The notes beneath the pieces were generated by a model. That model saw nothing but the letters and a program-made list of their open reading frames with translations. It made no database searches and was not told the DNA's origin. A stretch of 64,000 bases of DNA from Aedes albopictus (taxonomy: Eukaryota > Arthropoda > Insecta > Diptera > Culicidae). Shown piece by piece: positions 13,016-58,544 of this stretch (positions are counted from its first letter, which is position 1; each line of letters starts with the position of its first letter). The position numbers were made by a program, and so were the translations under genes. The DNA lies in assembly GCF_035046485.1 (NCBI RefSeq), contig NC_085138.1:20961440-21025439 (forward strand), given 5' to 3'.

Positions 13016-13479
13016 AAAAACTTCTGGTAGATTCTGGTGTAAGTCCATTTTAATTTAGAAGAAACACTTATATCTCGGTTGCACTCTGGTTGAATTCGCC
13101 CAAAAAACTCATGGGAAAATTTTTAGATTTCCAGTGTCATTATTTTGATCGCGTGGCTGGCAAGGGCACTGGTGTGCAGGGATGGCATTCCGCACTGAAA
13201 ATGTGCACAGTGCAGCTCTTTTTCATATTAAAACCGCGCACACTTGCACTCACACTGAGGAGCATGCCATCCCTGCTGGTGTGCTGTCCGTATTGGTCAC
13301 AAGCTGGATATTACATCTTTCTTCCAGCCAGCGGCGCGATATTTTCAAGAACAAACCGCATCCAGTCCCGGGAAACACTCAGTTAGTTTGTCCGGTGGGA
13401 ATGCCGAGTCTCCATGAGCTGCTCCAGTGAAGTTGACCAATTGCGGATGCCGATCGTCCCGAATACGCATTATCAGAGA

Positions 13480-18923: not shown

Positions 18924-19158
18924 AATTTAAGTTTCTTTTTAAGTGGAAATTCGTGACTATTAAATCAGAAGAATATCAAATCATAATTAGTGAAAGTGAT
19001 TACCTCATATGAAAACAAAACTATCTTCCTATAATTAAAATTTATTACCAAAAGTGTAGGTTTAATTAGTGCTTGAAAATCTTTAGAGTGTGTGTTTACC
19101 GAAAAAAAAGTGAAAAGTTTCTTGATTTTTTTTTTCTCATCCGTGCTTTTGTTGAAAA

Positions 19159-20529
19159 ATGGCACAAAGATACGATGAAAACCGTGATCTGCTTCAAATC
19201 CAGGTAGGTGAACTGGAGAACCAGATACGCGAGTTGGCGGGAGCAATGCAACATCGAGATCAACGTATCGTTGAATTAGAAGCACTTGCTGCCAACCAAC
19301 AAATGGGAGCGGCAGCAGCAGTGCAGCAAAATAATTCAGTGGAGAGTGCCTTGCGTGCACTGCAAACACCACAGATTATACGGGTACTTCAACCATTTGA
19401 CGGTAACCCAATAAAATTACATTCGTTCATTAAATCGATTGACGACTTAATGCCAGAAATCGAACGTGTGAGAAACACACCGGCTTACACCGTATGGCTC
19501 CTTGCCATTAGGTCGAAAATTATCGGAGACGCTGATAGCGTACTCGAATTCTATGGGACTAGTTCCGATTGGAGTGAAATTAAATCGAACTTGATAACTC
19601 ACTATAGTGATAAAAGAGACGAGGTGACTCTTACAAAAGACCTATTCAAGATGACACAAAAAGATAAGCCAATCGAAGAGTTTTATAAGGAGATTCAATT
19701 TTGTTTATCTCTAATGGTAAATCAATTGAATCTTAATGAATCGAATATTGACATAAGAAATGCAAAAAACCATTTCTTTCAAGAAATGGGCCTGAAGGTC
19801 TTCCTCGCTGGGCTCAACGAGCCTATCGGGCAAATTATAAGGGCACAATGCCCCTCCTCGCTTAAAGATGCTCTCAGAAGATGTCTTGAGGAGCGTAATT
19901 ATCACCATCAAAAGCCAAAATATAATCCACCACCACCACCATCATCGCGCAAATTTCAATATCCAAACAATCCATTTTTGCCAGGCCCCAGACCTCAACC
20001 ATTACCACGTATTCCTTTCCAGCCAAACCCTTCCACTCCACACCCTTTCCCGCGAGCACCACAGTACGCTAACTCCAACCCTTTCTATCGAACACAACAT
20101 CCCTTCCAACAATTCCCACCTCAACGAACATTGCCTCCAAACCCACCGTTTCGAGCCCAACCTCTAAATCCTTTCCAACAAACACATCCCTTTTCTCATC
20201 AGAATAATCCACCTAAACCAAACTCAGGATCTTTCCGTCATCAAAAACCCAGCCCAATGGAAGTCGATCAGTCGCTAAAGAGTCTAAAAGTAAATTACAT
20301 GAATCGCCCTAATTGGCATGAAATATTCTACACAGAACCAATGGATTACTACGGCCAATTCGGTGATCCATATAGTTTTTACCAATACGAACCAAACGAT
20401 TATTACAACGATTTACCTGTTAATGATCAAGATAAATTTGATAACAATACCGAACAACAAGATACTTCCGAACCAGAGAGTGATACATTAAATTTTCATA
20501 TGGAATCGCCCAAAACGGCAGATACCTAA
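19159..20529 (+). CDS. gag: Errantivirus Gag
   Basis: 456 codons from the ATG at 19159 to TAA 20527-20529. Residues about 9-60 look like a coiled coil rich in Glu, Gln and Leu. Residues 75-260 are the capsid-like helical part, ending in the CLEERNYHH-type sequence common in this group. Residues about 265-400 are rich in Pro, Asn and Phe. There is no CCHC zinc knuckle, which is usual for errantivirus Gag. The C-terminus is acidic. It overlaps the pol frame (-1) by 46 nt. Its role is to form the internal particle that packages element RNA. No damage seen. Confidence 0.9.
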   Translation: MAQRYDENRDLLQIQVGELENQIRELAGAMQHRDQRIVELEALAANQQMGAAAAVQQNNSVESALRALQTPQIIRVLQPFDGNPIKLHSFIKSIDDLMPEIERVRNTPAYTVWLLAIRSKIIGDADSVLEFYGTSSDWSEIKSNLITHYSDKRDEVTLTKDLFKMTQKDKPIEEFYKEIQFCLSLMVNQLNLNESNIDIRNAKNHFFQEMGLKVFLAGLNEPIGQIIRAQCPSSLKDALRRCLEERNYHHQKPKYNPPPPPSSRKFQYPNNPFLPGPRPQPLPRIPFQPNPSTPHPFPRAPQYANSNPFYRTQHPFQQFPPQRTLPPNPPFRAQPLNPFQQTHPFSHQNNPPKPNSGSFRHQKPSPMEVDQSLKSLKVNYMNRPNWHEIFYTEPMDYYGQFGDPYSFYQYEPNDYYNDLPVNDQDKFDNNTEQQDTSEPESDTLNFHMESPKTADT

Positions 20530-23500
20530 AAAGTAACAATTTTTTACCGTATATTAAACTGAGTACTAAATATGGAGAGTTCAAATTTTTAGTTGACACC
20601 GGTGCCAACAAAAATTATTTGAACCCGGAATTAGTTGATGTAAACATTTTTAAGAAATGCAATCCCACAAAAGTGAAAAACATTAGTGGAAAGCACACGA
20701 TCGACAAATACGTTGAATTGGACATTTTCGGGAAAAGCTTGAAATTTTATGCATTGAAATTTCACGCATTTTTCGATGGACTAATAGGCTATGAATCGCT
20801 TAGAGATTTAAAAGCCGAAATTTTAACATCTTCGAATATTTTAAAACTCCCTACTTGTTCAGTAAACATGCTTCGGAAATACCCTGACTCATTCAGTTGT
20901 AATCTGAACGCTTACGAGGAAATTCCTCTTGCCCTTAAAACCAATGTGTCGAATGGCGATTTTTTTGTTGAACATCCACTTCCTTTAACGGACGAAGTGA
21001 TGGTTCTGCCAGGAGTTTATACAGCAAAAAACAATAAGACTACTGTCCTGTTGAAAAACTGCTGTGAAGTTCCAGTAAAAATCAGTCCTAATCGACTTAT
21101 TTTTTCAGAGCTAAATAATTTCGAAGTCGAACAAAAAGTTGAAGATTATGAGCCTGGATACGTGTTTGACAATACATCAATTGACCCTAAGTTGAAAAGT
21201 CAACTTAGAGTAGACCATTTGAACTCGGAGGAAAAACGTAAACTAATGACCCTGATTTCTAAATTTCCCAGTATCTTTTATTTAGAAGGTGACGATTTAA
21301 GCTTTACAAATGTCATCAAACACAAAATTGAAACTAAAGATGAACTGCCAGTTCACGCTAAAAGCTATAGGTACCCCTACTGCCACAAAGAGGAGGTACA
21401 AAAACAAATTTCAAAAATGCTGTCTCAAGGAATCATACGCCCTAGCACGTCTCCTTGGTGCTCCCCAATATGGATAGTACCAAAGAAACTAGATGCATCA
21501 GGAAATCAAAAATGGAGATTAGTAGTCGACTATAGGAAGCTCAACGAGAAAACTATAGACGATAAATACCCTCTCCCAAATATAACCGAAATACTTGACA
21601 AATTGGGAAAATGCCAGTATTTCACGACTTTGGACTTGGCATCAGGTTTTCACCAGATCGAAGTTCACCCAGATGACATCCAGAAAACAGCGTTTTCTGT
21701 AGAACATGGGCTATATGAATACTTAAGAATGCCATTCGGGCTGAAAAACGCTCCAGCGACCTTTCAGCGAGTGATGGATCACGTACTTCGTGACCTCATT
21801 GGAAAATGTTGTCTTGTCTATATGGACGACATTATCATTTTTTCTGTTTCCCTCCAGGAGCATATAGAAAATTTGACAAAAATTTTTGCGGCATTGGAGA
21901 AAGTTAATTTAAAAATTCAATTAGATAAAAGTGAGTTTTTAAAAAAGGAGGTTGCATTTCTCGGACATATTGTTACCGACAATGGCGTTAAACCAAACCC
22001 GAGCAAAATTGAAGCAATTCAAAATTGGCCCATCCCTAAAAACCAGAAAGAACTTAGAGGCTTTTTAGGCATTTTAGGATATTATCGCAGGTTCGTTCGC
22101 GATTTTGCAAAAATCACAAAACCTCTCACTGCTCAACTGAGGAAGGGCGAGAGTGTAGAACATACAGACCAATTTCTAAAAACATTCGCTATATGCAAAA
22201 ACCTTTTAACACAAAGTGATATCCTTCAATACCCGGACTTCGAAAAACCTTTTGTTTTAACCACAGATGCCAGCAATTTTGCCCTAGGAGCTGTCCTCTC
22301 TCAAGGTCCAATTGGACAAGACAGACCTGTAGCATATGCATCTCGGACATTAACAAAAACTGAAGAACGGTACTCAGCAATAGAAAAAGAGTTACTAGCT
22401 ATCGTGTGGGCAACTCAATATTTCAGGCCTTATTTGTTCGGAAGGAAGTTCACATTATATACAGATCACCAGCCTTTGACTTATGCCTTAAATCTCAAAA
22501 CTCCGAACACAAAACTTGTTAAATGGCGTTTGCAACTATTAGAATATGATTTTGATATAAAACACCGACCCGGAAAACAGAACGTTGTCGCGGATGCCTT
22601 ATCGAGGATCACTCATGATTTGAATATAAACGAAAATGACTCAGATTCAGATGATGCGTCAGTGCATTCTGCTGACACAGACGATTCTGAATTCATCAAA
22701 TGCACAGAAAAACCAGTAAATTTTTTTCACAACCAAATTGTTTTAAAAGTTAACGCTAACGAATCCGAGACCTACGAAGAAATTTTTCCCCGTGTACATC
22801 GAAGAACCATAACAAAGGTAACATTTGGCGTGCCAAATTTGATTAAAATACTAAAAGAATATATGGACCCTAGACGTTCCAATTGTATAATGTGTCCCGA
22901 AACGGTTATTCCTACCCTACAATTCGTGTACAAAAACTATTTTAGTAGATGCAAGACTTTCAAAATTTGTATATCTCAAAAAATTCTTATTGACCTTCCC
23001 AAATTAGAGGACCAAACTTCAATCATTGAAGATACTCATGAAACTGCTCATAGAGGCATTCGTGAGAACCTAGAAGAAATCAAAAGAAGATTCTACTTCC
23101 CTAACATGAAACGGAAAATAAGAAAATACATTGTACTTTGTGATACTTGTAACAGAGCAAAATATGAAAGAAAACCATACAAGATTAAACTAGGAGAAAC
23201 ACCAATTCCGAAGCAGCCACTGGAAATCATCCATATGGACATTTACATCGCTCAACCAAACATTTTTTTATCTGCTGTTGACAAATTCACCAGGTACGGT
23301 ACTTTAATTCCAATTAAGTCAAGATCTATCCCCGATATCCGAAAAGCAATAGTAAAGTACATAGCAATGTTTGGCACCCCTACTATGATTGTTTCTGACA
23401 ACGAGCCAGCTATTAAGTCTATAGAGATCAGAGGAATGCTCTCAGATCTCAATATTCAACAATACTTTACTCCAAGCAATCACAGTCAAATGAATGGAAT

Positions 23501-23969
23501 TGTAGAAAGGTTTCATTCCACTATCACCGAAATTTTTAATGCAAATAAACATAAATATGGCGATATGCCGAACAAAGAAAAATTTCTAATCGCTTGTTCT
23601 TTGTACAACAATAGCATCCACACAGCGACTAACCTAAAACCAAGGGAGATACTTTATGTTTCCAAAAACGGGCAGGAACGACCCTTAGACATGGAACGCG
23701 TTATTGAGTTAAGAGATAAGTTGTATGACGAAGTACAACTTAAACTCAAAAAAACGCAGGACCAACAAAACAAACTGCACAACAAGAAACGAGAGGACCC
23801 ACCCACTTTGGAAACTGGAGATGCTGTGTACAACCGGATTCAGGGAGTGAAGTCGAAAATCAAGGATCGCTTCCAGTCAGTGCGAGTAGTAGCCAACCGA
23901 GGTCGCACGTACAAAGATTCAGCAAAAAGGAAACTGCATAAAGAAAAACTCAGACGCGTTCGAAAATAG
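20484..23969 (+). CDS. pol: Errantivirus Pol (protease, reverse transcriptase, RNase H, integrase), -1 frame from gag
   Basis: Open from just after TGA 20481-20483 to TAG 23967-23969, up to 1161 codons; it lacks its own good start and is presumably made by -1 frameshifting from gag. Domains: protease LVDTGANKNYL (about residues 36-46); reverse transcriptase with LDLASGFHQI and VYMDDIIIFS (near 21815); RNase H with TTDASNFALGAVLSQ (near 22262) and TDHQPLTYAL; integrase with an HHCC zinc region (H..H 23037-23055, CDTC near 23140) and a D,D-35-E core (HMDIYI, VSDNEP, GIVERFHS). The C-terminal basic tail (about 23830-23960) is typical. All catalytic motifs are present, and I see no stop or frameshift. 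Confidence 0.93.
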   Translation, partial: YIKFSYGIAQNGRYLKSNNFLPYIKLSTKYGEFKFLVDTGANKNYLNPELVDVNIFKKCNPTKVKNISGKHTIDKYVELDIFGKSLKFYALKFHAFFDGLIGYESLRDLKAEILTSSNILKLPTCSVNMLRKYPDSFSCNLNAYEEIPLALKTNVSNGDFFVEHPLPLTDEVMVLPGVYTAKNNKTTVLLKNCCEVPVKISPNRLIFSELNNFEVEQKVEDYEPGYVFDNTSIDPKLKSQLRVDHLNSEEKRKLMTLISKFPSIFYLEGDDLSFTNVIKHKIETKDELPVHAKSYRYPYCHKEEVQKQISKMLSQGIIRPSTSPWCSPIWIVPKKLDASGNQKWRLVVDYRKLNEKTIDDKYPLPNITEILDKLGKCQYFTTLDLASGFHQIEVHPDDIQKTAFSVEHGLYEYLRMPFGLKNAPATFQRVMDHVLRDLIGKCCLVYMDDIIIFSVSLQEHIENLTKIFAALEKVNLKIQLDKSEFLKKEVAFLGHIVTDNGVKPNPSKIEAIQNWPIPKNQKELRGFLGILGYYRRFVRDFAKITKPLTAQLRKGESVEHTDQFLKTFAICKNLLTQSDILQYPDFEKPFVLTTDASNFALGAVLSQGPIGQDRPVAYASRTLTKTEERYSAIEKELLAIVWATQYFRPYLFGRKFTLYTDHQPLTYALNLKTPNTKLVKWRLQLLEYDFDIKHRPGKQNVVADALSRITHDLNINENDSDSDDASVHSADTDDSEFIKCTEKPVNFFHNQIVLKVNANESETYEEIFPRVHRRTITKVTFGVPNLIKILKEYMDPRRSNCIMCPETVIPTLQFVYKNYFSRCKTFKICISQKILIDLPKLEDQTSIIEDTHETAHRGIRENLEEIKRRFYFPNMKRKIRKYIVLCDTCNRAKYERKPYKIKLGETPIPKQPLEIIHMDIYIAQPNIFLSAVDKFTRYGTLIPIKSRSIPDIRKAIVKYIAMFGTPTMIVSDNEPAIKSIEIRGMLSDLNIQQYFTPSNHSQMNGIVERFHSTITEIFNANKHKYGDMPNKEKFLIACSLYNNSIHTATNLKPREILYVSKNGQERPLDMERVIELRDKLYDEVQLKLKKTQDQQNKLHNKKREDPPTLETGDAVYNRIQGVKSKIKDRFQSVRVVANRGRTYKDSAKRKLHKEKLRRVRK
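20490..20496 (+). promoter_or_regulatory. Candidate -1 ribosomal slippery heptamer
   Basis: A AAT TTT, read in gag codons, lies inside the 46-nt gag-pol overlap (20484-20529) and fits X XXY YYZ. I did not establish a downstream pseudoknot or stem. Confidence 0.6.
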
Positions 23970-24007
23970 AAATATAACATTTCTAATACATTCTTTATTT
24001 TTTTTTC

Positions 24008-24027
24008 TTCCCTCTCTCTCATTTTAG
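24008..24027 (+). promoter_or_regulatory. Splice acceptor for env
   Basis: A T/C-rich tract (TTCCCTCTCTCTCATTTTAG) ends one base before the env ATG. Confidence 0.65.
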
Positions 24028-25830
24028 ATGAAACCGAATCGAACATTTTTCACCGCCCTCATACTGTTCCTGAACTATCAACTATCCCTTACCCAATTTT
24101 CAAAAATCCTAAACCTGAAACAAAATCCTGGCCTCCTTACAATTGAAACCGGCAGTAGCTTTATAAAAATAGGAAACCATAAACTTTTTCACGTTATCGA
24201 ATTAAACAACTATGATCCTATCTTTACAAAACTACTCAAAAATATTCAAGGACTACATAGATTCTCAAACTTTACGGATCTTGTCGAAATTTTGGAAATG
24301 AAATTCAATACCGTTCATAGCATTTTTAACGATCTTCAACCAAAGATAAGACAAAAAAGAGGATTGTTCAATGTGCTCGGAACAACAATAAAAGAAATAA
24401 CTGGTAACATGGACCATAATGATTTTGAGCAAATTTCTAAAATAATAACTGAGTTGCAGATTAGTAATAAAGTATTGACAAATGAGAATAATGAACAGTT
24501 TAAAATTAACCTGCAACTTCAGAATCGTATTAATTCCATAATAAATCGCCTAAGTCAACAACAAAATGAAATCACGAAAAACATTATATCTGCGCGATTA
24601 GAAAATGAGACAAGCAGGAATTTCAAAATTCTTAGAGAAACGATGAAAATTAACTACAATTTGGATAATCTAAAGTCACATCTAGAGAACATTTTTGAAT
24701 CAGTACAGCTTGCTAGAACCAAAGTCATCCCAAAACAAATATTGTCAGTAGAAGAGTTAGGATTTGTCTCAAACATTTTGGAGCAGCAAAATATCAGACC
24801 GAATAGCATAGAACAGATTTATGAGTTTTTAGATTTGTCCGCGTTCTATAATAATACAAGATTAATTTTCATTATTTCAATCCCCAGAATAGATAACACA
24901 ACATACGTTGAATTTTTATTAGAACCTCTTTTAGTTTCAAACAAGACTTTAAAACTTCCAGCCAATGTTGCTTTGCATAATGGTAACAAAACCTACTTCA
25001 CCAAGGAGAAATGCCGAAGGATCGGAGTAACCAAACTCTGCAGTCTCGACAAACTAGTAGACATCACCGGAGACTCGTGTTATTCCAAACTACTGAAAGG
25101 GCTATCCGGTAACTGCACCTTCACTAAGTACCACCAACCTCGGGCAGTAAAAAGGATTACAGACAACCACATTGTAATCACAGATGTACGAAACATGGAG
25201 ATCGATTCGAACTGTGGTTTGACCAGAAGGAATTTATCTGGAACGTATCTAATAGAGTTCCACAACTGTTCTGTTATGATAAACGGTACAAAGTACAGTA
25301 ATGCCGAGTCATATAGAATGGAACCTGCACTGGTAATGTCATTGGACGGTTTGCACATCAACCAACAGACCCTGGAGACCCAACCAAATATTGATGAAAT
25401 CCATATTAGAAATAGGCACCAGCTGGAAACAATAACGAAACAGCATAAAATTCAGACATACACCTCGCTAAGTATGTCAACTCTCTGTTTCCTTTTAAGT
25501 ATTTTTGCAGGCCTTCTATGGATAGTCAAGAGACGAAAACAAATATCTCTTTATCTAGGATCATCCACGGAGTCCAACGTGAACCCGAAGGACCAACCAA
25601 GCAGAACCGAGGTCAACCCAACGAATCGGGACGATTCGTCTCCAAAAGGGGGAGTAGTTAAGATCGAACCCTCCTGGACATTCCCCATGAAAAGCATCGC
25701 CTTCACACCGATGCTCATGGCAACAACAACAACGACAACACCAACGACGACGACGGCGATGCCAGCCCGTTCAACCTCGAGCCCGCAAGCCGCAAACATC
25801 AGCAGTTCTGCCCCTAGCACCCAGAAGTAG
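24028..25830 (+). CDS. env: Errantivirus Env glycoprotein
   Basis: 600 codons, ATG 24028 directly after a polypyrimidine tract and AG (acceptor at 24026-24027), so translation from a spliced message is likely. It has a signal peptide (residues 1 to about 22), a furin-type RQKR site at residues 108-111 followed by a hydrophobic GLFNVLG stretch (possible fusion peptide), several N-x-S/T sites, conserved Cys in the ectodomain (about residues 330-430), and a membrane segment near residues 479-500 followed by RRKQ. The last 58 codons lie inside the 3' LTR (from 25656) and include a Thr-rich run. This is the fusion protein of the insect errantivirus group. It appears intact. Confidence 0.9.
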   Translation: MKPNRTFFTALILFLNYQLSLTQFSKILNLKQNPGLLTIETGSSFIKIGNHKLFHVIELNNYDPIFTKLLKNIQGLHRFSNFTDLVEILEMKFNTVHSIFNDLQPKIRQKRGLFNVLGTTIKEITGNMDHNDFEQISKIITELQISNKVLTNENNEQFKINLQLQNRINSIINRLSQQQNEITKNIISARLENETSRNFKILRETMKINYNLDNLKSHLENIFESVQLARTKVIPKQILSVEELGFVSNILEQQNIRPNSIEQIYEFLDLSAFYNNTRLIFIISIPRIDNTTYVEFLLEPLLVSNKTLKLPANVALHNGNKTYFTKEKCRRIGVTKLCSLDKLVDITGDSCYSKLLKGLSGNCTFTKYHQPRAVKRITDNHIVITDVRNMEIDSNCGLTRRNLSGTYLIEFHNCSVMINGTKYSNAESYRMEPALVMSLDGLHINQQTLETQPNIDEIHIRNRHQLETITKQHKIQTYTSLSMSTLCFLLSIFAGLLWIVKRRKQISLYLGSSTESNVNPKDQPSRTEVNPTNRDDSSPKGGVVKIEPSWTFPMKSIAFTPMLMATTTTTTPTTTTAMPARSTSSPQAANISSSAPSTQK

Positions 25831-28854: not shown

Positions 28855-29608
28855 TGTTTAAAGTATCACTTTCTTTCTCCATCGGTAGTAGTATTAATAC
28901 TTGCGAGAATTCAAATGTCTTGATCGACCCATAGTTTCACATAACTGATTAGTGGATGACCTCTTGGCGAACCGCATCTGCTGTTTCTAGTCTGGCAATT
29001 ATTAACTACGTCGCACTTCACTTTTATAATTACATTTGTTTTTGACAATAACAAGCTGGCTAACGAGCGTTCTAGCAGAATTAGATGATAACTACTAGAA
29101 AACTAAACTTAAAGCACAGACAAACAGACGTCTCACTCAACTCACTTCTCATCGTCACCCTTTTTAACGGTTAGTTTAAATATTTTGTAGTTCGCAAATC
29201 ACTCGGTCACGGCGCTCGCATCGTTTTTGCTCCTGTTTGACGTTTGCTCACTACCGCCACCTACCGAGTGGTTTGCGTAACACAGCCTGATTAGCATTGG
29301 GCGATTATGTTTTCGTGACGATGATTTTTATCGCAATTTGTCTCAAGTGATACGTCTGTGCTTAAAGCTTACAAAAGCTTCAAACTAATAAAACGAGCTT
29401 AGTTCTATTAATGCGAGTACTACAAGCTCACCTTTCATAGATTGGTCAATCTGTGACTTTTCAGTGTAGATTGCTCGGCTTATAATAACTAGGTTATCAG
29501 AACAAATTATGATAAATAGATTCTCAAATAATTATAATATTGCAGAACGCCATTGGTCTAGAAACAGTAGTGCGTAACTGATTAATCGTTTTATCAACGG
29601 AGTACACA
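28855..29608 (-). repeat. Possible old LTR, split by a MITE
   Basis: On minus, a purine tract (TTAAGGGAGGGGGC, 29609-29622) precedes TGTGTACTCCG at 29608, as at a polypurine tract and 3' LTR boundary. The MITE 29113-29362 interrupts the sequence, which then continues with TATAAAAG to about 28855. No second LTR was found, so this is tentative. A short minus-strand reading frame just upstream (29675-29905) could be the end of its pol. Confidence 0.35.
29113..29362. mobile_element. MITE, AGCACAGAC family, copy 1
   Basis: The ends AGCACAGACAAACAGACGT (29113) and ACGTCTGTGCT (to 29362) are flanked by TAA on both sides (29110-29112, 29363-29365). Inside are GCATCGTTTTTGCTCCTGTT and TTAGCATTGGGCGATTATG, shared with the copies at 32459 and 53770. 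Confidence 0.8.
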
Positions 29609-32458: not shown

Positions 32459-32675
32459 TATGCACAGAGAAACAGATGTCACTCTCTGATCGCTTCCCAT
32501 CGATCACCTTTTAACGGATGATTCAAATATTCTGTAGGTGGTCAATTGACCACTCGCGGCGCTGGCATCGTTTTTGCTCCTGTTTGACGCTCACTACCGT
32601 CACCTAGTGGTGGCCCGGCCAAACACAGTACGTTTAGCATTGAGTGATTACGTTTTCGTGACGATGCTTCGGTCC
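32459..32675. mobile_element. MITE, AGCACAGAC family, copy 2 (right end lost)
   Basis: It begins ATGCACAGAGAAACAGATGT and contains GCATCGTTTTTGCTCCTGTT and CGTTTTCGTGACGATG, as in copy 1. The right terminus is missing where the BEL fragment begins. Confidence 0.65.
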
Positions 32676-35162: not shown

Positions 35163-36323
35163 TCCAACAGTACTCCAGAAGGATGGATCCTTGATGCAGG
35201 AGCAGGTGATCATATGTGTAGAACAAGAGAAGCATCGATCGATGCCGGATTGCCGGGGAAGTTTCGCAATGAATGTATGTGGCGGATGCATCAGAACTAG
35301 CAGTTGCAGCTTCAGGATCCAAAGAAATCGAAGTCGATGTGAATGGTGAGTGTTCTACGTTAGATGTATCAAATGTATTATGTGTTCCAGACCTGGCTGT
35401 GGATTTATTTTCCTTGAGTCGAATCTGTAAGAAAGGTTACAACGTTGCCGGTCTTGTGTATGAAAAATTCACGAATAAGAAGCCGGATTTGTCAAACCTT
35501 CGAGTCTTTGGATCAAAAGCGTAGGAAGTGGGAGGCCACTTCCACGCCGTGCATTTTCATCGGTTATTCAGCATACTCTAAAGCCTATTGTGTGTACAAC
35601 CCAGCAAGCAAAGAATTGTTTGAAAGTCGAGATGTAATAAAACTGAATGAAGATCCTGCAGCGGAGATGAAGCCAGCTCGTAACACAATCGATGAACCTC
35701 TGGTATCCTTCACAAATCTGTCAAGCGATGCGACTATTGAAGAAGTAAGCCGCGGCTTTTCGGGCCCGTATGAAGTTGATCACCAATATTAACTTCTTTT
35801 CCCGATCAGCCTAGATAGCTGTGTAGGGTCGGTAGCGGTTAGTTCAACTGGCTAAGAATAGCACTACGGACCGCCTGTTCCAGTGGTAGGAATCCACTAA
35901 TCAGGTGACCCCTAATTCATGGTGTTATGCGGCTTTACGCTTACCGTGCCTAGGAATGAATGGTTAGGGGGGTCTTATAAAAACCTAATCGCAAACGGAG
36001 CCTGTGGAGTACCAGGGCACCCTCCACAGTATTTGCCCTTACTGTGCTAACCGGAGCAATAGCGCGGTGGACCTTGTGTTTCTGCGAGACAATCAGCTGC
36101 CCTTCTTCAATCTCATACTTGAGGCTGAATAAGGGCGGGATTATGAAGATGTTGTTAATTAGTTTAGATTTTCACCTATATGGTTTCGCATTATGCGTTT
36201 TACACAGTGTATTCTGTGAATCCTCGCCTTTGGCGCACTCAAATCGATACCGATCTGGCTTTATTGTTGCTGTTCTTTTTTGTGCTGTGATTGTTAGGAG
36301 TTTAATCTTGCCTAGTTTGGGTA

Positions 36324-36908
36324 GTGGCTACGGTTAGGATAGCTCAGATCAATCTTCAGCACAAAAGAACAGCAACGATCAATCTTTGTAGACTTATGCA
36401 AAATGGTACAGCCCAAGTGGCGTTAGTCCAAGAACCTTACTTTCGTAAGGGGAATTTCTATTTAGGAAACCTTGTGAATCCGGTGTTTGCTACTTTCAGT
36501 AAAAATGAAATGGCAAACTCACGTGTCATGCCTCGAGCATGTGTGCTTGTCAACAACGCAATCGTTGCTACACTCATCTCTGAACTAACTACCAGAGATG
36601 TATGTGCTATCACAATAGATGTATCTGTTGGAAACCTCAACAGGAAATACGTTTATTGTTCGGTTTATTTACCGCATGATGAATCATCCCCTACGGATGC
36701 TTTCAAGCAAGTCATTGCATACTGCACTTCAAAAGGCCTTCCGCTAATTGTTGGTAGTGATGCTAATGCTCACCATATAATCTGGGGCAGCTCAGACATC
36801 AATTTGAGAGGCTCCAGTTTGATGGAATACTTAAGTAGTACAGATCTTGGATTACTTAACATAGGCAACCGCCAACCTTCATGGTATCTGCTAGAGAGGA
36901 AGTGTTAG
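36324..36908 (+). pseudogene. Lian-like ORF, endonuclease part
   Basis: Starts near the ATG at 36324. RIAQINLQHKRTAT opens an APE-type endonuclease; VALVQEPYF (the catalytic Glu motif), VYLPHDES and LIVGSDANAHHIIWGSS follow. The final SDHR motif is in the next frame (SDHRYILFEH, about 36985), so a single-base frameshift near 36890 breaks the domain. Confidence 0.85.
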
Positions 36909-38521
36909 ACATAACGCTTTGCTCTAGCAGAATTAGTCATGAGCTGACCAATTGGCATGTGTCAGATGAAGAATCTTTATCTGACCATCGTTACATCTTG
37001 TTTGAACATGTGAATGTTACTTCGCAAACTTTGCGTTTCAGGAATCCCCGGTCAACCAACTGGGATCTCTTTACCGATTTGGTTGCAGCCAAATTTCATG
37101 GATACTCACCATCAATTGACACTCCAAGTGATTTAGATGATGCCGTTGATACTACAACGGCCTTCATCATGGAAGCTTTTGAAGAAGCCTGCCCTCTGCG
37201 GTCTGTGAAGACCACGAGAGGAACCCCTTGGTGGAACTCCGATCTGGCGAAGCTCAGGAAACAATGTAGAAAGAGTTGGAACAGACGACGTTCGGCTGGA
37301 TCGGAGGCTTTCAGGTCGGCTCGCAAGGCCTACCAGAAAGCTCTTCGGTCTGCTGAACGATCCGGCTGGAAAAACCTTTGTACAAATGTTTCCAGTCTGA
37401 GTGAAGCCAGTCGATTGAACAAAATCCTTGCAAAATCTAAGGATTTTCAAGTGAACGAACTTCGTTTGCCAAATGGTGATTTCACTTCCTCTGATGAGGA
37501 AGTTTTAGAATGTTTATTCAGTACACACTTCCCCGGATGTGTGGATATTACATCTTCGGATGAACCTGATGTCTTTTCTTGTAGTTATGATTCTTTAGCT
37601 TCGGCTCGGAGTATCATAACTTTAGAATCGATTGAATGGGCACTTAATAGCTTTGCTCCTTTCAAATCTCCTGGGGCAGATGGGATTTATCCTATTTTGC
37701 TTCAGAAGGGATTTGATCATTTCAAACATGTTTTGAAACAACTACTTGTTTGCAGTTTTGCTACAGGGTATATTCCCAAATCCTGGCGGGATATTACTGT
37801 GAAGTTTATTCCGAAAGTGGGTCGCGCGTCGTATGAAGAAGCAAAGAGCTTCAGACCAATCAGTTTGACCTCTTTTCTTCTGAAATGCTTAGAACGCATA
37901 GTCGATCATCACATCCGTGATGTTCATCTGGCCAATGTGCCTCTTCATGTGAACCAACATGCTTACCAATCTGGAAAGTCCACTGTGACTCTTTTACACA
38001 AAGTTGTTTACGATATCGAGAAGGCATTCGCTCAAAAGCAATCCTGCTTGGGTGTTTTCTTAGATATCGAGGGTGCCTTTGACAACGTGCCTTTCGATGC
38101 CATATTGGAAGCCGCACGGGGTCATGGTATATCTCCAATGATTTCCAATTGGATTCACCAAATGCTCAAAAACCGGCATCTCTTCTCGACATTGCGTCAA
38201 GCGGCGATTAGGAAATTGAGTGTTTGTGGCTGCCCCCAAGGGGGAGTCTTATCACCACTTTTATGGAATCTCGTAGCAGATACGCTATTGAGGCAACTCA
38301 ATAATAGCGGTTTTCCTACTTATGGTTTTGCCGACGACTACCTAACATTGTTAGTCGGTATGTGCATCAGCACCCTTTTCGACTTGATGCAAAGCGCCCT
38401 TCAGGTAGTTGAGGGTTGGTGTCGCCAATATGGCCTTTCGGTAAATCCGAGTAAAACATCTATTGTTCTTTTCAGGGAAATGCGAAACCGTAAATGGTGT
38501 TCGACCTTTACGTCTCTTTGA
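36881..38521 (+). pseudogene. Lian-like ORF, reverse transcriptase part
   Basis: Long open stretch with SPGADGIYPILLQKG, SFRPISLTSFLLKC (finger motif), NQHAYQSGKSTVT, LDIEGAFDNV, CPQGGVLSPLLWN and the catalytic GFADDYLTLL. The -ADD- motif is intact. The frame shifts near 38480 and continues in 38463-39130 (VGVILDSKLSWTPHI, RPILAYGCLVWW). Confidence 0.88.
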
Positions 38522-39140
38522 TTCTGTAATCAATGTGACTGAACAGATAAAGTACGTTGGAGTCATTCTTGATTCCAAGCTGTCCTGGACACCTCACATT
38601 GAGTTCAGAATCAAGAAAGCTTGTATGGCCTACGGGCAATGCCGGCGAACCTTTGGTACAACTTGGGGTCTAAAACCCAAGTATATCAAATGGATCTACA
38701 CAACTGTTGTTCGGCCAATATTGGCCTATGGATGCCTTGTGTGGTGGCAGAAGGGCGAAGTGAGAACGGTCCAATCAAAGTTAGGCCATCTCCAAAGGAT
38801 GTGCTTAATGGCGATGTCTGGAGCGTTCTCTTCAACTCCCACGGCAGCTCTCGAAGTTCTCTTTGACGTTGCCCCACTACACATTCATCTCAAACAAGAA
38901 GCACTTTCTTGCACTTACCGCCTATGGGTACTCGGTTTACTAGAGGAAACTCCTGTGAACCGCAGTTCAACACACACCTCGTTGTTTCCACTTTTGGTGA
39001 ATTGGGACAAAGTTGTCCTTGCTCCAAGTGATCTTACAATTGCTTGTAGTTTTCCATATAGGACATTTTCCACGAAATTCCCTTCCCGGGAAGAGTGGAC
39101 ATCTGGTTATCTGGAGAGAAGTATTTCAGACGGCATCGTA
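38463..39140 (+). pseudogene. Lian-like ORF, thumb and connection
   Basis: Continues the protein after the second frameshift: INVTEQIKYVGVILDSKLSW, PKYIKWIYTTVVRPIL, LQRMCLMAMSGAFSSTP. It stops being element sequence at the MITE insertion (39141). Confidence 0.8.
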
Positions 39141-40022
39141 CACACTAAGAATATTTCACAGAATTCTGTGAAATTTCACCGAAATCTCAACAGCAGATTT
39201 TTCGGTAAACTGTTCGGTGATTTTATGTTTCACCGAACGATTTGTAAAAATTGAAAATGCCCATCTGTCAATTTCACCGAACATTTCGGTGATTTTTTTT
39301 CACAGATTTTCTGTGAATCCATTGTTTTGTTTTGTAGGTTTCACAGAATTTTCGGTGATTTTTATACAAAATTACGGTGATTTTAATTAGTTTATTTGCT
39401 TTTCACAATATCATTCGGTTTATTCTTATTTTTTATAAAATCACAATCAAAAATAGATTGAATTTCAATAATGATGCACAAATTAATATGATGAAAGTGG
39501 TTGTGTTTAGATGATCTGACGATGCACCGGTGTGACGCATTCGGGCCAAGTTCCAGGCACCTCAATCCGGAAGAAACAGCAGATAATTGACTGCAAAAAA
39601 TAATATTATTATGATGTAATTAGTACTTACGGAAACTACCAACCAGTTCTTCGTGATGCTGTTGGAAATTATCCGAAACTTTTTCCATTATTGTGTTATT
39701 CTGCTGAATGTTTCAGATGACTACCTTTGCGGAATAACGGAACAACAACCAAAACCAGCCACTTTTAATTAGACAATTGTTAATGGTTTTACAGTAATCC
39801 GGTGAAAATCGCAGTGTGCGGTAAAATTTTTGGTGTTTAGCGAACCGTAATGTAAACATTTCACAGAATTTCGTAATTTGTTTGCTTTCACCGAATCTTC
39901 TGTGAAACTTTGACAGTTAGATTGGAAAACATTGCATTTCACAGAAAGATCTGTGGAAACATATTTTACAATTTAGATTCGGTGAATAATTTTACAGAAT
40001 TCTGCGATTTATTCTTAGTGTG
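39141..40022. mobile_element. 882-bp MITE splitting the Lian-like RNase H
   Basis: The ends CACACTAAGAATATTTCACA and, inverted, CACACTAAGAATAAATCGCA have TA on both sides (39139-39140, 40023-40024). Subterminal TTCACAGAATTCTGTGAAA and TTCACCGAA repeats are plentiful. The sequences on each side join exactly at the start of the RNase H TDGS motif. Confidence 0.85.
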
Positions 40023-40844
40023 TATGTTACACTGATGGCTCCCTTCTCGAAGGTCGAGCAGGTGCTGGTGTTTATTCTCGTGAGCTAAGGCTGTATCAGT
40101 CTTATTCACTTGGCAGACACTGCACCGTTTTTCAGGCCGAAATCTTTGCTCTTATGTGCGGAGTGCAATCAGCACTTCAGCAGCACGTAATGGGCAAAGT
40201 TCTGTTCAGATAGCCAGGCTGCTATTAAAGCACTTGCTTCGGCTAACTCCAGGTCGAAGATAGTTATCGCTTGTCGTACTCAAATCGAGGAGCTGAATTC
40301 AGCAAACGCTGTTCACCTTGTATGGGTACCTGGCCATTCTTCCATCGCTGGAAATGAATTGGCTGATGAGTTAGCTCGCACTGGAGCATCACATGACTTC
40401 ATTGGCCCTGAGCCAGCTATTCCGGTATCCAAGTGTTGGGTGAAGCTTCGGATTGACACCTGGGCTGCCACTCAGCACAAACAATACTGGAATAGTTTGG
40501 AGTCATGTCGTCAAACAAAATTGTATTGTACTGAGCCATCTCTAGGAGTGGCAAAGTATCTAACAAATCTGTCAAAGCAGAATTGCAGCATGCTGGTCAA
40601 AGCATTGACTGGCCACTGCCGACTCAGTTATCACATGGCGAATATTCAGCAAGCTGATTCATTTGCATGTGATAGCTGTGAATCAGATTATGGAACTTCG
40701 TATCATTTAATATGTAGCTGTCCAGTTTTTGCGCAATTGCGTTTCCGAGTACTCGGGAAACACTTATTAAGTGAAACTGACTTCAGAAACCTGAATCTTC
40801 AGGACGTTCTGTTGTTCTTGACCCGCTGTGGTAAAGAGCTATAG
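40023..40844 (+). pseudogene. Lian-like RNase H and C-terminus
   Basis: Begins CYTDGSLLEGRAGAGVYS (the first catalytic Asp of RNase H) and FQAEIFALMCGV (the catalytic Glu). A frame break near 40205 follows; then VWVPGHSSIAGNELADELAR in the 40359-40844 frame, and a CX2C-type knuckle near 40670-40720 (CDSCESDYGTSYHLICSCP). Confidence 0.8.
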
Positions 40845-47150: not shown

Positions 47151-47650
47151 NNNNNNNNNNNNNNNNNNNNNNNNNNNNNNNNNNNNNNNNNNNNNNNNNN
47201 NNNNNNNNNNNNNNNNNNNNNNNNNNNNNNNNNNNNNNNNNNNNNNNNNNNNNNNNNNNNNNNNNNNNNNNNNNNNNNNNNNNNNNNNNNNNNNNNNNNN
47301 NNNNNNNNNNNNNNNNNNNNNNNNNNNNNNNNNNNNNNNNNNNNNNNNNNNNNNNNNNNNNNNNNNNNNNNNNNNNNNNNNNNNNNNNNNNNNNNNNNNN
47401 NNNNNNNNNNNNNNNNNNNNNNNNNNNNNNNNNNNNNNNNNNNNNNNNNNNNNNNNNNNNNNNNNNNNNNNNNNNNNNNNNNNNNNNNNNNNNNNNNNNN
47501 NNNNNNNNNNNNNNNNNNNNNNNNNNNNNNNNNNNNNNNNNNNNNNNNNNNNNNNNNNNNNNNNNNNNNNNNNNNNNNNNNNNNNNNNNNNNNNNNNNNN
47601 NNNNNNNNNNNNNNNNNNNNNNNNNNNNNNNNNNNNNNNNNNNNNNNNNN
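47151..47650. other. Assembly gap, 500 N
   Basis: Exactly 500 undetermined bases, so the gap length is probably a placeholder. Confidence 0.98.
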
Positions 47651-53398: not shown

Positions 53399-53647
53399 CA
53401 GCATCCGCTCGATAACTGACTGCTCTTTAACTGGACTGCTTTTTAACTGGGCGCTCGATAACTGGGGCAAAGTCGAGTTAAAAAGCAGTTATCTGTCAAA
53501 AATAAGCGAAATATAACCTCACATTTTTCAAATCGGTAAACAAAACAAAATATAACAATAGCCTCCGGCTCCGGAAGCTCAGTCCAGTTATCGAGCGGCG
53601 CTCGCTTACTGGACTGTCGACAAAGCCCAGTTATCGAGCGGAAGCTG
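53399..53647. mobile_element. 249-bp MITE
   Basis: The ends CAGCATCCGCTCGATAACTG and, inverted, CAGCTTCCGCTCGATAACTG have TA flanks (53397-53398, 53648-53649). The GCTCGATAACTG box repeats inside at both ends. Confidence 0.88.
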
Positions 53648-53769: not shown

Positions 53770-54026
53770 AGCACAGACAAACAGACGTAAAACTTCGAAC
53801 ATTTTTCGATTCAAATCATAGTCACGGAAACATATTCGCCCAATGCTAAGAGGACTAAATTTGGCCGACCACCAACTTGGTGGCGGTAGTGAGCAAACGT
53901 CAAACTAGAACAAAAACTATGCGAGCGCCACGGTTGGGCAGTTGGCCAACTATCAAATTTTGAAAAAGACCGTTAAATCGGTGTACGATGAGAATTATCA
54001 GAGTGTTACGTCTGCTTGTCTGTGTT
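53770..54026. mobile_element. MITE, AGCACAGAC family, copy 3 (reverse orientation)
   Basis: The ends AGCACAGACAAACAGACGT and GTCTGCTTGTCTGTGTT are flanked by GAA (53767-53769, 54027-54029). The body is the reverse complement of copies 1 and 2. Confidence 0.8.
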
Positions 54027-54573: not shown

Positions 54574-56125
54574 ATGAGAAAGTTCCACCGATTTTTGGTG
54601 TTCAGCGTCGCTGCGCTCGTCCTGTACCTGGTCTATCGCTATTCCTTCCCGGTGGACAGCGAAGGGAACTACCTCCACCGACGAACCGACGTGACAGCTA
54701 GAACAAATAAATTCAAATTTGTTGCCCGCGACGCCATGATGAAAAATAGCCGAACACTATCGCCACCTCTATAACGGCTCGCGATGATTTGATAGCTCGA
54801 CACCGAACCCCCGTGTGTTCATATAGGAAACGGTTCGCGTCTGCGCTGATTTGACAGAAGCGATCGCTCGCTTCAGTGGTCGACCGTTAAATTTGGGGGG
54901 GACACTTTTGAATCGCCACTGTCACGTCGGTTCGTCGGTGCTACCTCTTTCTGAAACCCCTGGAGAGTAGTGGGAACGGAGTTCTTACGTTGCTGCAGCA
55001 GTCTGCCGACGATCGGCAGACGGACGTTGATGGTGAAGGGGCAGATGAGACGGAGAGGGAACCGGATCCGAAGCGGTTGGTAAATCTGACCGATTTCCAG
55101 TTCCGGATCGGAAACGACATCTGCAAGGAGAACGGGAGCTACTCGGAACTTTTGGGTGGGTGTTGATGGGGTGGACCCTTTCATGAGAAGATGTTTTATA
55201 ATGAATCTTTGTTTCAGGTGTAATCATGGTGACGTCCTACGTGGGAAACGATGCGCTGCGGGCAGCGCACCGGCAGGCCATCTCCCAGCAGAAGCTGATT
55301 TCGATGGGTCTATTACGGATATTCTCCCTCGGGGAAATTCCAGAGCGGGAGCGGTTCATCACCCAGAAGGCGCTTCAAAGCGAACAGGATCTCTTTGGGG
55401 ATCTGATTCAGGGAAATTTTCAGGAAGCCTACCGAAATCTTACCTACAAGCACGTTATGAGTCTTAAGTGGGCCACGGAGCACTGTCGGAGGGCCAAGTT
55501 CGTGGTCAAAATGGACGACGACATCGTATTCGATCCGTTCTTCGTTCAGAATCACCTGTCGGATCTCGGCCATGGAAAGGACCAGCCACAGGGGTCACTA
55601 TTGGCCGGATTCATGTTCAACAACAAGAAAGTTATCCGGCTGAAGGCGAACAAGTGGTTCGTGTCGCGGGAGGAGTTCCCCCGGGAGGTCTATCCGCCGT
55701 ACTTGTCCGGATGGTTGTACATCGCCAATCAGCGGGCGGCCCGGAAGTTAGTCCTGCAGTCGGAAGTAGTTCCGTTCTTCTGGATCGATGACACCTACGT
55801 GACGGGGATTCTGGCCGGCCAGGTCGGGATCAAGCTGCACAGTCTGAACAAGTGGTTCAGTGCCAATTCGGAATTCCTGGACTGCTGCATCCGGGACATG
55901 AAGCGGTATTCGTACCAGTGCGATTACTATGTGGGCCCGAACGGGGGCAACAGTCGACTCATAATGGACTTTGTTCAGGAGTTGGAGCGTTGCTACGACA
56001 ATGCTTGCTATCAGCGGCCGAGTGAGAAACCACTGACCAAGACCTGTGTGGCGGAGTACAAGAATACCGTGCAACAACAGCAGCAGCAGCATGGGACGGC
56101 GTTGGTCAGCATGATGCGGCTCTGA
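54574..56125 (+). CDS. GT31 beta-1,3-galactosyltransferase-type gene, exon 1 disrupted by a MITE
   Basis: Coding parts: 54574-54675, (MITE), 54948-55155, 55218-56125, with a 62-bp GT-AG intron at 55156-55217. Without the MITE and one duplication the frame is 1218 bp, 405 residues, normal for GT31. ATG 54574 has a good context (CAGCCATGA). Residues about 6-23 are a membrane anchor (FLVFSVAALVLYLVY), so it is a type II Golgi protein. The catalytic domain starts near residue 90 (LTDFQFRIGNDIC; VIMVTSYVGNDALRAAHR). The metal-binding KMDDDIVFD is at about 201-209 and WIDDTYVTGIL at about 292. A Gln run precedes the C-terminus. The expected activity is transfer of galactose or N-acetylglucosamine in beta-1,3 linkage; the substrate is unknown. 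As read here, translation from the ATG would end at TAA 54772-54774 inside the MITE, so this allele should be null unless the insert is removed in RNA. Confidence 0.88.
54676..54940. mobile_element. 265-bp MITE inserted in the GT31 coding exon
   Basis: 22-bp perfect terminal inverted repeats (54676-54697 starting CACCGACGAACCGACG; 54919-54940). A 7-bp target duplication CTACCTC is at 54669-54675 and 54941-54947. No coding capacity. The right terminus contains no AG that could serve as an acceptor in frame. Confidence 0.92.
55156..55217 (+). other. Intron of the GT31 gene
   Basis: 62 bp, from GTGGGTGTTG to CTTTGTTTCAG. Splicing after TTG-G joins to GT-GTA and keeps the frame into VIMVTSY. Confidence 0.9.
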
Positions 56126-56509: not shown

Positions 56510-58544
56510 CTGTCGCTGTGAAAAAAGTTCAGTTCTGGAAGATGGAAAGTTCTCGAAGTCAATCAAGCTTCGGCGGATCTTCAAGTCTCCCGTCCATCGA
56601 ACGACTGGCGGGACGCCAAAACTAATCGTCATGGAAGTTTGCAGCGAAAACTTTTCTTCAGCTGGAAGGACTCTGGGATGCCGTAAAGCCCAAGCAGAAC
56701 GACGACGGAACATTCGAAGCGGTAGAAGAGCGGAAGGAACTGCACGCCCGATTGATGCTGTTCCTGCTTCTGGACCCGTCAATCTACGTCGAAGACGCAG
56801 AATCGGCCCGCGCCGCGTGGGACAAATTGGAAACGGCGTTTGACTGCTCCGGCAAATCGGCTTGCTCCCAAGCCTATCAAGTCGGATCTGGAATCGTGCG
56901 ACTCAATGAACGAGTATGTGAACCAGGTAATTTCGACGGCGAATCTACTGAACGGCATCGGATTCAAGTTACCGGATTTGTGGGTCGAAATGGTCCTCCA
57001 GGCTGGCCTTCCGAACCGGAAGAATATCGACCCATGATCATGGTGTTGGAAAATTCTGGCGTTGCCATAACACGAGACTTCGTGAAAACCAAGCTGCTCC
57101 AAGAGCAACCGTTGCTAAGCAACCGGAAAAAAAGCCATGCCTTCGCTACCAACAAACGGAAAGAAAATTTCAAACCGAAAAACCAGCCTACTGCATCCGA
57201 GGGCCCGAAATGCAGAAAATGTGGTCAGCATGGATACATCGCAAGGGACTGCAAGGATTCCAGGAAATGTGAGACGTTTTGCACCATGCTTTCCACGTTT
57301 GACAACGGGACGCGAACGACTGGATTTTCGACTCGGCGGCGTATGCGCACATGACGAGCAACAAGCAGCTCCTGGAGAACCTCGTAAACGCCAACGGTAA
57401 GGCTGTTGCAGCAAATGGTGGTACGATGGACATCGTTGCCTGCGTTTCGGCAAATCTCCAGCCGAAATGCAGGAGCGAAACGGTCTGGCGGAGCCTGCCA
57501 ACTGGACCATCGTGGAGATGGCACGATGTTTGCTGTTCAAAGGCAACCTATCGAAAGGCTTCTGGGCGGAGGCCGTATCCATCGCGGTTAACCTCATCAA
57601 CAGTTCTCCTACTCATGGGCATAACATGACTCCAGAGGAAGCGTGGAGTGGAAGGAAAGCGATAGTTCAAGTTCCAAAGCAGAAGCGGCGCAAGTGGAAT
57701 CCAAAATCCCATGAATGCATATTGACGGGCTTCGATGAAAAAACCAAAGGGTATCGGCTATACGATCCGATAAAGAAGTCAACTGGTGGACTGGCACTGT
57801 TGGACAACAATACCTGGACTCTCACCCCGCTTCTGAAGGGCCGAAAAGCGATAAAGTGCAAATGGCTGTAAAAGACGAAGTGTGATGTGACTGGAAACCC
57901 TCAAAGAGGCAAGGCACGTTTGGTCATCAAAGGCTATTCCCAGCGAAAGGGGGTAGACTACGATTAAACATATGCCCCCGTCGTGCGGCACAGTTCGCTG
58001 CGATACCTTTTCGCCCTGACTGTGAAGCATGACCTCGCAATAGACCAGATGGATGCAGTAACGGCTTTTCTGCAAGAGAATCTCGACGAAGAGTTTTACA
58101 TGGAGCAGCCCCCCTTCTTCGTTGACGGAAAACGGAAGACGATGGTGTGCAAGCTGAAATAGGCATTGTACGGCTTGAAGCAGTCCAGCCGAGTTTGGAA
58201 CCACAAACTGGATGCGGCTCTGCGACGTTTCGGCCTGATACCATCACAATTCGACCCGTGCGTGTACGTCGGCATCAGAGGAGGCAAGATGATGTTCGTT
58301 GCGATATATGTCGACGACCTGATGATCTTCAGCAACGACGAAGCCTGGAAGAACAAATTGAAGCATCAATTATCTTGTTGCTTTCGGATGAAATATCTGG
58401 GACAAGCGCAACATTGCCTTGGGATCCGGATTGGTTGAAGTAAGGACTCTATCCCATTGGATCAGGAGGCCTACATCGAGTCGATACTTAGGCGATAGCG
58501 ATTCAACATGGATCGGAGCAAACCAGTGAAGGTGCCGATGAACT
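56510..58544 (+). pseudogene. Decayed copia element (second copy), gag to reverse transcriptase
   Basis: Gag: CDSMNEYVNQVISTANLLNG and MVLENSGVAITRDFVKTKLL. Zinc knuckle CRKCGQHGYIARDC (about 57214-57255). Protease site DSAAYAHMT (about 57330), where the catalytic DSGA-type triplet is changed. The integrase is reduced to its C-terminal part (ERNGLAEPANWTIVEMARC, WNPKSHECILTGFDEKTKGY). RT: QMDAVTAFLQENLDEEFYME, then ALYGLKQSSRVWNHKLDAAL and IYVDDLMIFSNDEAW (YVDD). There are stops and frame changes. It continues after the solo LTR at 58875-59146. Confidence 0.85.

Follow-up and report, generated by a model that had tools for sequence, protein, structure and literature searches.

An inverted-repeat element with a 7-bp target duplication interrupts the first coding exon of a GT31 glycosyltransferase gene in Aedes albopictus

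The glycosyltransferase gene and its broken frame

Enzymes of the GT31 (Galactosyl_T) family are beta-1,3 transferases of the Golgi. A gene of this type lies in the Aedes albopictus DNA analyzed here, a stretch of 64 kb referred to below as the window, and an element which we assign to family A stands inside its first coding exon (Table 1). The inverted ends of this element (54676-54697 and 54919-54940, 22 bp each) are 100% complementary. The directly repeated CTACCTC on its flanks is exactly 7 bp long, the next outer bases being A on one side and T on the other. A first-pass annotation of this DNA had described a MITE-like element within a coding exon, with perfect 22-bp termini and a CTACCTC target duplication, and our measurements agree with each of these points.

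Table 1. Features of the window, numbered from its first base.
Feature	Position	Strand	Description
Coding exon 1, GT31-type gene	54574-55155	+	element inside; 34 codons precede it
Target duplication, left copy	54669-54675	+	CTACCTC, native codons
Family A element	54676-54940	.	265 bp, non-coding, 22-bp perfect inverted ends CACCGACGAACCGACGTGACAG
First in-frame stop	54772-54774	+	TAA, within the element
Target duplication, right copy	54941-54947	+	CTACCTC
Native intron	55156-55217	+	GT-AG; donor matches 6/9 and acceptor 11/12 consensus positions
Coding exon 2	55218-56125	+	Galactosyl_T domain and stop codon
B1, family B	53772-54024	+	253 bp, ends CACAGACAAACAGACGT / CACAGACAAGCAGACGT, 7-bp duplication TTGAAAG
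B2, family B	29115-29360	-	246 bp, 7-bp duplication CTTAAAG; one end minus about one 8-bp repeat unit
B3, family B	32463-32669	-	truncated; single end, no duplication seen
Third, unrelated element	53399-53647		249 bp, inverted ends matching at 19/20 bases, TA on both flanks
Inverted-repeat unit	13176-13276		101 bp, ends GCAGGGATGGCAT, 6-bp repeat TGGTGT
Retroelement with envelope-like frame	19156-25827		gag-like, pol-like and Baculo_F-like envelope frames of 457, 1161 and 600 residues, all open
Open frame, 674 residues	3-2024	-	DUF1759, aspartyl protease, zinc knuckle
Non-LTR retrotransposon-like frames	36306-40841		reverse transcriptase 36860-38518, RNase H 40191-40841
Copia-type gag	56626-57351		PF14223, E 2.4e-07; about 500 bp past the glycosyltransferase stop codon

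When the element and one copy of the repeat are omitted, the frame that begins with the ATG at 54574 stays open for 405 codons across a single GT-AG intron; an alternative in-frame donor at 55162 would yield 407 codons. The product of exon 2 matches Pfam Galactosyl_T (PF01762, E 5.8e-40) and has KMDDD, with D203-D205 invariant across an 18-row alignment, as the earlier assignment to GT31 with a DDD motif had proposed. The solved structure closest to the gene product is that of beta-1,3-galactosyltransferase 5 (8zwp, E 1.1e-24).

The insertion falls after codon 34 of exon 1 and adds 272 bases, a multiple of three plus two. Read with the insert in place, the frame runs through 34 native and 32 foreign residues (66 in total) and ends at the TAA at 54772. 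The native codons ahead of the element appear to include a single-pass anchor. The 66-residue stub retains the hydrophobic N-terminal stretch and is without the catalytic domain. The first in-frame methionine downstream lies just ahead of a TSY that is conserved where the domain begins, so that a product restarted there would be without the anchor. From the early stop we infer that the allele is null. As a query the stub gave two protein matches, both to its native half only; its absence from the protein collection says little because short predicted proteins are poorly represented there.

The intact form and the alternatives at the locus

The predicted protein of the empty site was searched against approximately 5.8 billion proteins, and 446 matches at E 0.001 were obtained among 7994 candidates scored. 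The best match, P0001, is annotated as beta-1,3-galactosyltransferase 5 of Aedes albopictus, and the protein that follows it has 89% identity (best 120 of the 446 matches examined). Compared with the dipteran beta-1,3-galactosyltransferase 5 / CG3038-like GT31 proteins, the gene described here equals the Ae. albopictus member at 405/405 residues over 100% of its length, and differs in that its coding frame is interrupted. Since the empty-site frame and P0001 are identical throughout, the match indicates that the gene is also recorded intact in the species. The first-pass annotation had called the frame otherwise undamaged, which the comparison bears out. It had also called the insertion probably polymorphic and recent. 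The former gains support, as a full-length identical Ae. albopictus protein requires an empty site; the latter fits the perfect ends, the perfect repeat and the absence of amino-acid differences, none of which dates the event.

Eighteen proteins were aligned. Seventeen of them span the insertion point, P0001 included, and the remaining one (P0028) starts downstream and is uninformative. The point is unbroken in all 16 other relatives that cover it. Fifteen of these are 68-93% identical, namely 12 named mosquitoes (Armigeres, Ochlerotatus, Culex, Wyeomyia, Uranotaenia, Toxorhynchites, Topomyia, Sabethes, Malaya and three Anopheles) and three others, and the sixteenth is from Drosophila. Most relatives read NYL/FLKP, where the slash marks the point; FL follows it in 15/16 and LH in Drosophila. 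Two more exon-1 proteins are also continuous through the site. Judged from these proteins, the insertion site is neither an intron nor a variable region.

The insert might nevertheless be a new intron, that is, an exonized or intronized element whose complete or nearly complete removal by splicing leaves a working enzyme. A total of 226 GT-AG pairs were tried and 27 of them keep the frame. The pair 54691/54965, for example, would give a protein of 404 residues in which HRRTD replaces FLKPLE, a change that the N-terminal stem would probably tolerate. Against this, none of the eight equivalent registers for removing the 272 bases is GT-AG, which leaves no exact restoration of the native sequence, and all 27 frame-keeping pairs lose or replace native residues. 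Twelve of the 27 were scored, and their donors match 2-5 of 9 and their acceptors 7-8 of 12 consensus positions, versus 6 and 11 in the native intron. The relatives, moreover, are without an intron at the insertion point. We consider a functional new intron most improbable; leaky splicing of the allele is possible but unlikely. An origin of the locus as a decayed second copy, or as an assembly artefact of collapsed haplotypes with the working gene elsewhere, also appears improbable. The scaffold is joined, with a 500-base N gap of round size at 47151-47650, and the intact protein might derive from another copy. The coding sequence nevertheless has no lesion besides the insert, which is unexpected for an old pseudogene given its complete agreement with P0001, and the precise ends and duplication fit transposition rather than a misjoin. 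Our preferred reading, in which we have high confidence, is that a small non-autonomous DNA transposon has inserted into exon 1 of the GT31 gene of Ae. albopictus and created a loss-of-function allele of a gene that the species also has in intact form.

Families A and B in the window

With up to three mismatches allowed, the family A end matches at two places in the window, both of them the element's own ends, and at none in 100 shuffles; no further family A copy was found in the 64 kb. The longest stop-to-stop frame within the element has 57 residues and no relative in the predicted-protein collection. The folding signal of the inserted sequence as RNA (z -4.9) comes mostly from its inverted ends, and we do not count it as evidence. 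We scanned the window for 13-bp inverted ends (at most one mismatch) abutting an exact direct repeat of 5-10 bp. Four places were found, versus none in each of three mononucleotide-shuffled windows. A looser scan with 10-bp ends gave 6 in the window versus 1, 3, 2, 3, and 1 in five shuffled windows, and these loose criteria taken alone would not be convincing.

The 13-bp scan recovered B1, which lies 549 bp upstream of the ATG and 651 bp upstream of the family A element. Two further copies were missed by the scan and found by BLAST with B1: B2 (74% identical over 245 bases, E 5e-39) and B3 (E 1e-28). Family B thus has three copies in 64 kb, with exact 7-bp duplications in both complete ones, and the duplication is exactly 7 bp in 3/3 complete elements when family A is included. 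A multi-copy family, as the term MITE implies, is shown for family B only.

The first 17 bases of the two families agree at 14 positions, with a probability of approximately 1e-6 per fixed alignment under equal base frequencies. The ends of A and of B each contain two near copies of an 8-bp word (7/8 and 6/8). The string ACCGTTAAA occurs in A (at 49 bp), B1 (47 bp), and B2 (48 bp), each distance being counted from the same end, and its shorter form CCGTTAAA is present in all four copies at 47-49 bp from one end (47 bp in B3); we put the chance of such a shared position at 0.004, a rough estimate. Outside this box the interiors are not alignable. Interiors were compared six times, and 11, 32, 145, 4, 131, and 128 of 500 shuffles reached the best local score; a second shared motif, GGTGGCGRTAGTG, has opposite orientations in A and B, which counts against kinship. 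We read A and B as two families probably mobilized by the same or sister transposases. Because the ends of A are perfect while the copies of B differ by about a quarter, we read family A as the likely younger of the two. The 7-bp duplication looks like a trait of the lineage. Its length had been called unusual for common DNA transposons, which is partly right; the two related elements of the window also have it, as does Galileo in the available text of PMC4168063.

The strings were also searched elsewhere. The 22-bp end of family A had no match in viral contigs of a collection without mosquitoes, and a 20-base piece of it had one match in genome contigs without mosquitoes, in an actinobacterium, which we take for chance. 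The end of family B had one match in the mosquito-free viral contigs (L001, 601 of its 4528 bases inspected), likewise taken for chance, and an 18-mer from its interior had none in the mosquito-free contig collection. In the literature searched, which takes in few subscription journals, the end strings and the interior of family B were unmatched in any relevant context, and the string matches in the text available were confined to papers that, by their titles, deal with cytomegalovirus and mouse gut; a Repbase or TEfam entry may exist.

Other mobile sequences are present in the window (Table 1). Within 1.3 kb reaching from the upstream flank into exon 1 lie three different short inverted-repeat elements, the unrelated one at 53399-53647 among them. 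The pol-like frame of the retroelement at 19156-25827 includes reverse transcriptase, RNase H, and integrase, and the domains of the frame at 3-2024 are combined in what we take to be the manner of BEL/Pao elements. Neither an Rfam search nor a tRNA search gave a match anywhere in the window.

A candidate transposase and the meaning of the allele

The element would have arrived by cut-and-paste insertion. A transposase provided by some other locus of the genome would bind the ends of the element and cut the target with a 7-bp stagger, and repair of the gaps would double CTACCTC. The 272 added bases shift the frame by two and introduce the early stop, so that the allele would yield only the 66-residue stub with its membrane anchor and no catalytic domain. 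The three 15-base target sites are palindromic at 13/21 pairs, which is equalled by 0.0007 of random window triplets. As transposon target motifs are always palindromic according to the available part of PMC4168063, this palindromy says cut-and-paste and no more.

Which superfamily supplies the enzyme is an even question in our judgment. Our best guess, at about even chances and unproven, is a P-like transposase for the A/B lineage, because duplications of 7 bp are also known from Galileo, a P-superfamily element. The 7-8 bp duplications of that superfamily are matched by the 7 bp found here in all three complete elements. The candidate box, at 47-49 bp and at one end only, may correspond to the subterminal binding site that the superfamily has at approximately 40-70 bp; the distance between the 3' end of the P element and its THAP site is 41-51 bp, as given in the accessible text of PMC3688188. 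An element of another superfamily, hAT, Mutator-like with an off-size duplication, or undescribed, is equally credible. No transposase was seen in the window, where none of the 10 ORFs scanned (of 35 with at least 130 residues) matches a DNA transposase that could serve as an autonomous partner. The ends here begin with CAC, unlike those of hAT elements, which begin with CAGNG. Elements of the hAT and MULE types are common in mosquitoes, and the sections available of PMC3706591 and PMC5225508 group both with P as makers of 4-10 bp duplications. In the portion of PMC5225508 at hand, each of the 14 MULE families described from Ae. aegypti has duplications of 8-9 bp, and in 12 of the 14 the ends exceed 100 bp, which contrasts with exactly 7 bp in 3/3 here.

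Two candidates were rejected. For a Mutator-like (MULE) element a duplication of 8-10 bp is expected versus the 7 bp of the three complete elements. The Dada superfamily shares duplications of 6-7 bp and differs, in the excerpted account of PMC3706591, in having no terminal inverted repeats and in targeting small RNA genes; the element here has 22-bp inverted ends and sits in a protein-coding exon.

Among known systems, and within the parts of the cited papers that were available, the P-MITEs of Anopheles gambiae (PMC1562414) resemble families A and B as short non-autonomous mosquito elements whose ends are inverted, whose interiors are unrelated, and whose duplications are long and exact. They differ in that their duplications are 8 bp and the ends of their parent P elements 27-31 bp, versus 7 bp and ends of 17-22 bp here. 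Galileo of Drosophila (PMC4168063, PMC3573991, PMC3688188, each in part) shares duplications that are mostly 7 bp (PMC4168063), with 8 bp in three D. willistoni copies, and a palindromic target; its subterminal transposase-binding site lies approximately 70 bp in. Its ends are very long, unlike those of A and B, and each of the three duplications here agrees with its target GTANTAC at no more than 2-3 of 6 bases on either strand. Muta1 and the other Ae. aegypti MULEs, as far as the text of PMC5225508 goes, share the Aedes host, insertion in or near genes and, in most families, short subterminal tandem repeats; they differ in their 8-9 bp duplications and mostly long (>100 bp) ends. The ends of the ATon elements differ from those of A and B in the part of PMC3422177 available.

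A P-superfamily (Galileo/1360-like) transposase may serve this lineage, which has CACMGACRAACMGACGT ends, 7-bp duplications, and the box CCGTTAAA approximately 48 bp from one end. The fullest version of this reading, in which the duplication length is fixed, the box is a subterminal recognition site, the lineage is an undescribed and recently active Ae. albopictus MITE lineage moved by such a transposase and the allele a fresh segregating null, is tentative and in our view rather doubtful.

At the level of the gene, the finding is a sound and fairly ordinary insertional null allele, a textbook insertional mutation as far as sequence can tell. New here is that the element has relatives, and that a lineage sharing the 7-bp duplication occurs in the same window; this and the existence of an intact record from the species lend the case a slight extra value. 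The allele would be a clean natural knockout of a mosquito GT31 gene that shows close conservation at the site among its mosquito relatives, and since the empty form is on record, a comparison of carriers with non-carriers would be feasible. The ends, the length of the duplication, and the putative binding box that the related elements provide may help to trace the transposase, and any current activity, in this invasive vector.
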